64,000 bases of DNA from an uncultured Paracoccaceae bacterium (GTDB taxonomy: Bacteria; Pseudomonadota; Alphaproteobacteria; Rhodobacterales; Rhodobacteraceae), in assembly GCA_947495295.1 (NCBI GenBank), contig CANLYJ010000001.1, positions 992,001-1,056,000 of the forward strand. The letters are read 5' to 3'. The stretch's first letter is position 1. Each line of letters opens with the position of its first letter. A model generated the notes under the pieces. It was not told the origin of the DNA, searched no databases, and saw nothing but the letters and a program-made list of their open reading frames with translations. The position numbers and the translations under genes were made by a program. This document shows positions 15,362 to 16,927 of this stretch, piece after piece.

Positions 15362-16057
15362 TTAGGTGGGGTCGATACCTGCAATTGTGATGAGCGATAA
15401 TGTCGCAAAGCTGATCAGTAGCGCCCAGCCGAACGATGCCAATGTCCCGATGATCACGTATTCGCTGGCGCGCTGATCCTTTGACACTGTGTCGAACCGC
15501 AGGATGGATTTGGCAGCGATCAGAAAACCGATCCCAGCAGGTTGGCCCGCCAGCACCATCAGGTAGATCAGCGCCCGTTCCAGCAGCCCGATCATCCGCC
15601 CCGCAGCGGGTAGGCCAACATGTTGAATTTCATCGAAATCGGCCATCAAAAGCCCAATCGCTGGTCCGCCCGTCATGACGCATAGGATCAGCCCAGCGCT
15701 GAGTGTCAGCACATATTGCGTCCAGATCGTTGCCTCTGGCCAGAGCGTGGAGAGTTCTGGCCAGAACCACAAAACCCCGGCAATTGTAAGAAAATGTGCC
15801 AGTTGATCAGCCAGATAAGCCCAGAGCCGTTCGGGGGCCAGATGCGTCTTGATCAGATCGATGATCAAGTGGATCGCAGCGATTGTCAGGGCTGGCACCA
15901 ATTCACCGCGTAGCGCGATGAGCGTGAACAGGAAGACGACACCGATATGGGCTGCCATCGCCTCGGGCCGTTTCTTGTTGGCGATGATCCATTTGTTTTG
16001 AAACGGATAATCGGCAAGCAGATGGGCCAGTATCAGGGCCAGTGCGGTGGTTAGCAT
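15362..16057 (-). CDS. DUF3307 family membrane protein
   Basis: A 231-residue integral membrane protein with about six or seven hydrophobic helices. The N terminus, ALALILAHLLADYPFQNKWII, holds the H-x-x-x-D-Y-P-x-Q signature I associate with DUF3307, and AAIHLIIDLIKT follows. The start at 16057 has AAGGAG 6 bases upstream. It lies downstream of a SatD-like gene on the same strand; I recall the two families being found together elsewhere. The 102-base gap between them holds three phased palindromes, so this gene may have its own regulated expression. Function unknown. Confidence 0.8.
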   Translation of the reverse strand: MLTTALALILAHLLADYPFQNKWIIANKKRPEAMAAHIGVVFLFTLIALRGELVPALTIAAIHLIIDLIKTHLAPERLWAYLADQLAHFLTIAGVLWFWPELSTLWPEATIWTQYVLTLSAGLILCVMTGGPAIGLLMADFDEIQHVGLPAAGRMIGLLERALIYLMVLAGQPAGIGFLIAAKSILRFDTVSKDQRASEYVIIGTLASFGWALLISFATLSLITIAGIDPT

Positions 16058-16080
16058 TGCTACTCCTTCATCCGCTTTTG

Positions 16081-16156
16081 ACAGCCTGATATGACTGTTT
16101 TTTGTAAAGACAGGCAAATGTGGCTGTTATTTACAAAAACAGCCGAATATGGCTGT
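16081..16156. repeat. Three 18-bp palindromes phased at 29 bp
   Basis: Three copies of an 18-bp imperfect palindrome, general form ACAGCCnnATATGGCTGT: ACAGCCTGATATGACTGT (16081-16098), ACAGGCAAATGTGGCTGT (16110-16127) and ACAGCCGAATATGGCTGT (16139-16156). Starts are exactly 29 bp apart, and the 11-bp spacers are A/T-rich. The array fills the gap between the stop of the SatD-like gene and the start of the DUF3307 gene, ending 23 bases before the latter. It could be an operator array or three consecutive RNA hairpins. Confidence 0.75.
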
Positions 16157-16159
16157 CGT

Positions 16160-16765
16160 TCACATACCATCGAGAATCTCGCATGTTTCAATGAGCGCGT
16201 CCACGCCTGCCGCGTCAATATGCCCTTGTATGGTTTGCTTGGTCACGTCCAGCGTTTCGGCCAATGCGGCTTGGGTCGGGGTGTCTGGCGCAAGGGCGTG
16301 TAGTGCTACCTCTGCCTGCGCTTCGGTCCAGCGTTTGATCACCTCTTCGGCCAATCGCAGGGCCACAGTATGCACACCGTCATTGCCCGCGACCACCATG
16401 TGACGTTTGCGCGGCATATGTTCCAAGGCTTGCCCCGAGGCGGTAAAGACCGGGCCGGCCGCATCGGCCAATGTGTCGCCGGGGATCACGCCTTCGCCAA
16501 GTGCCAGTGCCACCCTTGTGTCGAACCGTTTATCAGCCATACGGACTGCGGCGCGAGTGGCAAAGACTGCACGCAATGCAAAACCGGGCGCCACGGCCAT
16601 TTGCCAGCCATCACCGCGATTGCGCGTCAAGTGAACACTGCTGCCTTGCCAGCCGCCAATACGATCTGCCGCATCAGCCAGATTGGCAAAAATCCGGTCC
16701 AGCCCGCCTTGCGGCAATTGCGATGATTTGACGATATCGCCTGTTAGAACGGCAAAATTGGTCAT
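16160..16765 (-). CDS. SatD-like protein with C-terminal helix-turn-helix
   Basis: A 201-residue soluble protein. Its N-terminal FAVLTGDIVKSSQLP and internal RNRGDGWQMAV match the SatD family; the two Asp-containing loops resemble the metal-binding loops of nucleotidyl cyclase-type palm folds (inference). The C-terminal part TQAALAETLDVTKQTIQGHI (about 165-184) reads as a helix-turn-helix, so the protein may bind DNA. It is upstream of the DUF3307 membrane gene on the same strand, with the palindrome array between them. That layout suggests that it senses something and controls its partner. Catalytic activity and ligand are unknown. Confidence 0.68.
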   Translation of the reverse strand: MTNFAVLTGDIVKSSQLPQGGLDRIFANLADAADRIGGWQGSSVHLTRNRGDGWQMAVAPGFALRAVFATRAAVRMADKRFDTRVALALGEGVIPGDTLADAAGPVFTASGQALEHMPRKRHMVVAGNDGVHTVALRLAEEVIKRWTEAQAEVALHALAPDTPTQAALAETLDVTKQTIQGHIDAAGVDALIETCEILDGM

Positions 16766-16927
16766 CGGCCCCTCGATCTTTTGTCGCCATGCTGGCGCGG
16801 GCAGGGGGGGAGTGCAAGCTGGAATGCCGGGACAGCGCGCATAGCTGATTTTGCAGTGCTGTGATTGATAAGCTGTTAAGGCGCGGTACGTCCGCGTTGC
16901 CCGGAAATACCGCTTATTTTCAGGCGT

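Follow-up and report, generated by a model that had tools for sequence, protein, structure and literature searches.

The locus lies within a stretch of 64,000 nucleotides (positions 992,001 to 1,056,000 of contig CANLYJ010000001.1, from an uncultured Paracoccaceae bacterium) that is hereafter called the window. It comprises two genes read from the reverse strand, encoding a SatD-like regulator and a membrane protein, together with three palindromes in the gap between them:

16160..16765, reverse strand: SatD-like regulator of 201 aa (open reading frame; AlphaFold model with pLDDT 97; class III cyclases by Foldseek/VIA; PF16264 through intermediates)
16346..16765, reverse strand: class III nucleotidyl cyclase-fold domain, residues 1-140, with the metal-site-like Asp10 and Asp52
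16208..16273, reverse strand: C-terminal helix-turn-helix (HTH), residues 165-186 (model helices 165-172 and 176-186), with recognition-helix residues K176 and Q177 at 16235-16240
16139..16156, no strand assigned: operator-like 18-bp palindrome, the first past the SatD-like gene in reading direction
16110..16127, no strand assigned: operator-like 18-bp palindrome, the middle one
16081..16098, no strand assigned: operator-like 18-bp palindrome closest to the membrane gene, whose ATG follows after 23 bp
15362..16057, reverse strand: membrane partner of 231 aa, with a DUF3307 half and an unnamed C-terminal module; ATG at 16057
15383..15730, reverse strand: C-terminal membrane module, about residues 110-225, retained in the partners of wider SatD genes
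16789..16817, reverse strand: possible array-free promoter of the SatD-like gene, TTGCAC, 17 bp, CAGCAT (by-eye comparison of seven window-like loci)

The gap between the two co-oriented genes measures exactly 102 bases (16058-16159), as the initial annotation had claimed, and its three perfect or near-perfect inverted repeats of 18 bp, reported there with starts at 16081, 16110, and 16139 and a pitch of 29 bp, are confirmed by their coordinates and by shuffling. With up to three mismatches, the motif has six matches in the window against 0.42 expected, all of them corresponding to the three sites on the two strands, and a count of six was reached in 0 of 100 shuffles. Across the whole genome, a slightly wider pattern allowing up to one mismatch recovers the three array sites and a single other place, at C5:188139; at up to two mismatches, 18 matches are found, versus 32 for the reversed control. 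The fourth match, with one mismatch (G000:C5:188139-188156, or L004 1501-1518), falls within an ABC-transporter ORF and is likely due to chance.

In the window's family, matches to the SatD-like protein occur in 28 of 149 genomes and, in a larger scan, in 101 of 394 (its own genome counted in both); 84 places of the 394-genome scan are strong (E ≤ 1.4e-47) and the others are weak partial matches. Within the window's genus, 15 of 31 genomes have a match, its own again counted, and among 385 genomes sampled across the class, strong matches are confined to three genomes of its own family, the ten other matches being weak and covering one domain. The 119 loci collected encode 95 distinct SatD-like proteins, and the membrane gene lies directly downstream, on the same strand, in 94 of these 95 loci (the exception is L132). 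Among 398 genomes of the phylum, the SatD profile (PF16264) matches eight, five of them over its cut-off, and in all eight loci satD is followed by the membrane partner. A scan of genome contigs added 79 named loci (the best 79 of 365) from Sphingomonas, Roseibium, Phenylobacterium, Pseudomonas, Bordetella, Bacteroidota, Chlorobiaceae, and others. The wider SatD set comprises 83 distinct proteins in all, none of them shared with the 95 family proteins, and the loci examined number 178 in all.

The relationship to SatD is shown through intermediates, because searching the window's genome with PF16264 at E 0.001 gives no match, and the model is absent from the Pfam hits of the window protein (at E 0.1). 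The family profile, A1, finds seven of the eight PF16264 loci (E 3e-39 to 5e-7; L137 is missed), and three loci (L139-L141) are matched by both models, their matches to PF16264 (E 4e-6 to 3e-4) falling short of its cut-off. The label SatD-like, given in the initial annotation, thus stands as homology through intermediates, but not as a PF16264 match in this genome, and the window group is best described, from profile comparison, as a putative SatD-like sister group of PF16264; one family relative (P0027) is named "SatD family (SatD)" by UniRef. The two groups share the gene order with a membrane partner, the profile similarity through L139-L141, and 18-bp arrays with a pitch of 28-30 bp, and they differ in that the window protein lacks a PF16264 match and its partner has an added DUF3307 half. 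In published annotation, SatD appears under "secretion and acid tolerance" (PMC10326533; PMC5786311; PMC10210942), and a Streptococcus suis target table names it a "DNA-binding protein," without a test there (PMC12005413). A tested molecular function for SatD or DUF3307 was not found in the available parts of the literature searched, and the available text of PMC2447327 has no HTH passage. The suggestion of a defence-like system finds no support, as neither protein matches any PADLOC defence family at E 0.1.

The structural model, Foldseek/VIA, and profile search agree in assigning the N-terminal domain of the SatD-like protein to the class III nucleotidyl cyclase fold, and model and profile together bear out the earlier description of a C-terminal HTH preceded by a cyclase-like domain. 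The likeness to class III adenylyl cyclases (Ma1120, Rv1900c, and Rv1625c) extends from the fold to the motifs GDI, RxxGDGW, and TRxxxxxG. Asp10 and Asp52 are conserved and align with the metal-site motifs of Ma1120; they presumably represent the metal-binding aspartates of class III cyclases, and aligned positions 108 and 112 are taken here to correspond to the two catalytic residues, Asn and Arg, of the VNxAAR-type helix. Unlike these enzymes, the SatD-like protein has a C-terminal HTH fused to the domain and lacks a counterpart of the catalytic Asn: none of the 95 family proteins and none of the 83 wider ones has Asn at aligned position 108. The Arg is variable (position 112 is Arg in 51 of 95 family proteins and Gln in the window protein). 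Given the missing Asn and the variable Arg112, nucleotide binding stays a prediction, and ligand sensing by the SatD-like protein is plausible on the grounds of its fold. Among 25 of the 38 Pfam families listed for 28 members, none is a cyclase family.

The nearest known architecture is that of PucR/CdaR-type regulators such as MabR (Rv2242; PDB 9f80), in which a GGDEF/cyclase-like alpha/beta domain is followed by an HTH effector (PMC11617747). According to the part of that report available, MabR differs in carrying an additional globin domain, and a section heading describes it as without catalytic motifs (PMC11617747). The fold match between MabR and the SatD-like protein is weak (Foldseek rank 43, rmsd 15.6), and no PucR, CdaR, or HTH_30 domain appears among the Pfam hits of the window protein at E 0.1; the SatD-like fold is closer to class III cyclases, with both metal-site aspartates kept. 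The HTH itself resembles that of MarR-type zinc-uptake regulators (ZitR and AdcR) in profile comparisons (E 0.007 to 0.3), but the MarR_2 score is 16.5 against a cut-off of 27 bits, and the rest of the protein is a cyclase-fold domain.

In the membrane partner, PF11750 (DUF3307) covers residues 6-99 (55 bits versus a cut-off of 23, E 1.1e-14), and the model is all-helical (pLDDT 94.7). In the four proteins scanned, no Pfam family exceeds its cut-off over the C-terminal half, and the initial label of DUF3307 hence holds for residues 6-99 and does not extend to the rest of the protein. Downstream of 76 of the 83 wider SatD genes there is a match to the partner profile, which in 73 of the 76 starts beyond profile position 90; in the remaining loci, three partners were recognized by motif and two by eye, and two contigs end too early. 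Since the matches begin in the C-terminal half, it is the unnamed module, and not DUF3307, that constitutes the constant companion of SatD. This module, spanning residues 110-225 of the protein encoded at 15362-16057, carries the motif LER...K..R...Y..G..S and is kept beside SatD as far as the Bacteroidota; judged by these alignments, DUF3307 is an extra N-terminal half of the window-family partner. The DUF3307 half (15761-16042) also matches phrog_2470, a phage membrane protein of the host-takeover category (E 9e-16). In the available parts of the literature searched, DUF3307 was found only as the best hit of a phage ORF, in a Ralstonia jumbo phage whose DUF3307 ORF has its best hit in Sulfitobacter (PMC8504454).

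Arrays comparable to that of the window are a common feature of these loci. They were scored as chains of 18-mers with agreeing half-sites and a pitch of 28-30 bp, and called when no more than one of 40 dinucleotide shuffles did as well. By this test, 90 of 95 family loci have an array (77 of 95 regions upstream of the satD-like gene, and 27 of 37 testable gaps), where about six calls are expected by chance among the 132 regions, and so do 62 of 83 wider loci (52 of 66 in the Pseudomonadota), with about four expected by chance; five family loci and 21 wider loci have no array by the same test. Arrays reach four sites at constant pitch. A stricter test without preset pitch places the distance peak at 29 bp in the family (52 of 95 loci, versus about none in shuffles) and at 28-29 bp in the wider set (26 of 83 loci). 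With slightly wider gaps allowed, the strict test finds a pair at 28-30 bp in 54 of 95 loci and in 0 of 1094 control windows taken from the same loci, 12 of which have a pair at some other distance. In thirteen loci the array is restricted to the gap, and 12 of them have K or Q at residue 176; some of the called gap arrays (e.g., L011 and L049) look like chance. In the gaps of L010, L018, and L020, the last palindrome overlaps the sequence ATGCTT(G/T)CC, in frame with the partner ORF by eye, and the operator may cover the partner start codon.

The association of the arrays with satD is also apparent at the genome scale. In 20 whole genomes with satD-like loci (seventeen with GCAAG-type sites and three without, G086, G092, and G208), a search for two GCAAG...CTTGC sites separated by 9-13 bp finds 13 places in 11 genomes. 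Comparison with the places of the 394-genome scan shows that every one of them immediately adjoins the satD-like gene, and the reversed control of this search finds none in the same 20 genomes. The confinement of double sites to these loci indicates that the array is a private partner of the gene, rather than a scattered repeat.

Half-sites vary between genomes (ACAGCC, ACAGGT, GCAAGC, TCAAGC, GCAACC, and others), and their letters follow the residues of the HTH. In 90 family rows, base 1 is G in 63 of 65 rows with R176, A in 13 of 14 rows with K or Q at this residue, and T in 10 of 11 rows with P, T, or A. When covariation is ranked over the 422 variable columns of both proteins, partner included, base 1 is led by residue 176 (z 31.1, against 12.9 for the runner-up), base 4 by residue 178 (z 12.0 against 8.2), and base 2, by a narrow margin, by residue 177 (z 8.5 versus 7.6 for Sat50); residues 182, 174, and 181 rank highest for base 5. 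A tree computed from the cyclase domain together with the partner, leaving the HTH out, offers nine independent pairs, and these agree on the association of R176 with G at base 1 (among 200 pairings, a few have eight of nine in agreement; median p 0.004). This is the only family test of sufficient size, K/Q176 providing five pairs and Q177 only two. In 51 proteobacterial rows of the wider set, the highest of 185 columns for base 2 is residue 177 (z 9.2, against 6.3 for the runner-up), with R going with G in 18 of 18 cases, H with G in 9 of 15, and Q with A in 6 of 6; the corresponding tree test, with only four pairs, is not significant (median p 0.25). In these rows, residue 176 does not stand out for base 1, nor does the HTH for bases 5 and 6. 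The family rule for residue 176 predicts 41 of 62 wider loci correctly, below the 44 of 62 obtained by always guessing T, and its failure there indicates that the half-site code drifts between clades. That the letters of the half-sites follow the HTH is the pattern expected from direct reading of the array by the SatD-like protein.

Some clades illustrate this variation. A clade with a KSRQ-type helix followed by K(S/A)L (L026, L082, L086, L089, L096, L097, L099, L115-L117, L131, and L133) has the half-site GCA(A/C/T)CC upstream of satD-like, with a pitch mostly of 30 instead of 29 bp, as if pitch and helix had changed together; L071 and L094 share this half-site with other helices, and L071 has a pitch of 28 bp. 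In the Bacteroidota, satD loci (L205, L212, L214, L215, and L220) have AAATAA/AAATTA-type arrays with a pitch of about 29 bp and K(T/N)RS-type helices; their half-site code is unlike the proteobacterial one, R176 going with A.

In arrays upstream of satD-like genes, the letters of the sites also resemble promoter elements. Sites in these arrays mostly end in TTG(C/A). Of the 77 last sites, 53 have TA at positions 9-10, versus 4 of 136 earlier sites (p 2e-26). Together with the 29-bp pitch, these letters would place a -35 and a -10 element, with 17 bp between them, on adjacent sites. The distance from the end of the last site to the chosen start codon is 0-4 bp in 54 of 77 cases, which fits a leaderless transcript. 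The 29-bp phasing, initially read as setting successive sites on different faces of the DNA, hence has a simpler reading that applies to the upstream arrays of relatives, but not to the gap array of the window: the -10-like TA is found in 3 of 27 last sites of gap arrays and is absent from that of the window, and a promoter scan lists none on the window's array. The window's branch, with a VTKQ helix and ACAGCC sites, has no array upstream of satD; a TTGCAC-17-CAGCAT element is conserved there in seven loci (by eye), and the scan does not list it either. In the wider set, the TA signature is not significant (9 of 52 versus 6 of 89, p 0.086).

These observations point to the palindromes being, quite probably, operators for the adjacent SatD-like protein, a predicted nucleotide-sensing repressor of the membrane partner gene. 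Array conservation, exclusivity to the locus, and covariation of helix and half-site lend strong support to the initial proposal that a cyclase-fold SatD-like regulator would bind the array and control its partner. A SatD-like homodimer would occupy each palindrome, and a metal-bound nucleotide in the cyclase pocket, as its fold suggests, would set the affinity for DNA. In most relatives, the array would overlie both the -35 and the -10 element of a leaderless promoter; binding there would block RNA polymerase, and the satD-partner operon would be autorepressed. The window's branch carries no array other than the one preceding the partner gene, and regulation by SatD would there be limited to the partner, exerted at an internal promoter or by a roadblock that stops read-through. 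The lack of a promoter on the window's array, together with the scarcity of TA in gap arrays and its non-significance in the wider set, makes the sign of regulation the weakest step. The mechanism fits a known kind, the local one-component repressor, while the combination of parts is new.

Activation, with ligand-bound SatD-like protein recruiting RNA polymerase to the membrane gene, would account for an array that in the window's branch lies just upstream of the partner ATG with no consensus promoter, as expected of an activator-dependent promoter; it is nevertheless unlikely, because the distribution of TA in relatives puts the -10 on the last operator, the preceding one ending in the -35, and operators placed on these elements normally occlude RNA polymerase. 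A wrapping or architectural role, in which the array would serve for DNA looping or a nucleoid-type filament instead of a promoter switch, could draw on the presence of up to four constant-pitch sites, more than one promoter needs, and on pitches of 28-30 bp that place successive sites off one face. The arrays are, however, short and local, and upstream of satD they are tied to promoter-like letters, which renders this role quite improbable. The same promoter context bears on the earlier alternative that the inverted repeats between co-oriented genes form RNA hairpins in the satD-partner transcript, for processing, attenuation, or translational coupling. An array ahead of a predicted leaderless start would not be transcribed, and this reading is hence disfavoured wherever the last site just precedes such a start, within 4 bp in 54 of 77 upstream arrays; the arm letters, moreover, track SatD helix residues, and neither a T-run terminator nor an Rfam family was found, making hairpins very improbable. 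Least probable is the binding of some other transcription factor, with covariation arising from shared ancestry alone, for although related sequences can covary by descent and only the R176 tree test is large enough, the top columns among 422, partner protein included, are adjoining recognition-helix positions, the nine independent pairs agree on the HTH-free tree, and double sites occur only beside satD in the 20 genomes.

SatD and DUF3307 are both widespread families. If the palindromes are operators for a SatD-like repressor, SatD gains a testable role as a local, cyclase-fold repressor acting on an operator array; the nameless SatD-linked membrane module, for its part, is set apart from DUF3307. 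The loci would also provide a natural protein/operator series for a one-component regulator, with residues 176, 177, and 178 set against bases 1, 2, and 4, and the placement of the -35 and -10 on adjacent operators offers a reason for the 29-bp pitch. A far broader generalization, which is speculative and rather doubtful at present, would make SatD proteins of the Pseudomonadota and Bacteroidota a class of cyclase-repressors that, within a single polypeptide, bind, and perhaps cyclise, a nucleotide in the class III cyclase pocket and read their own promoter-embedded array, the nucleotide state directly switching the unnamed family of membrane effectors.

Within the window's genus (L005, L064, and L103-L117), three lineages of the pair can be distinguished by their half-sites and by the place of the array, with ACAGCC sites in the gap, GCAA-type sites upstream, and GCAACC-type sites upstream at a pitch of 30 bp. 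The presence of three such lineages in one genus suggests that the pair may have been replaced or transferred.
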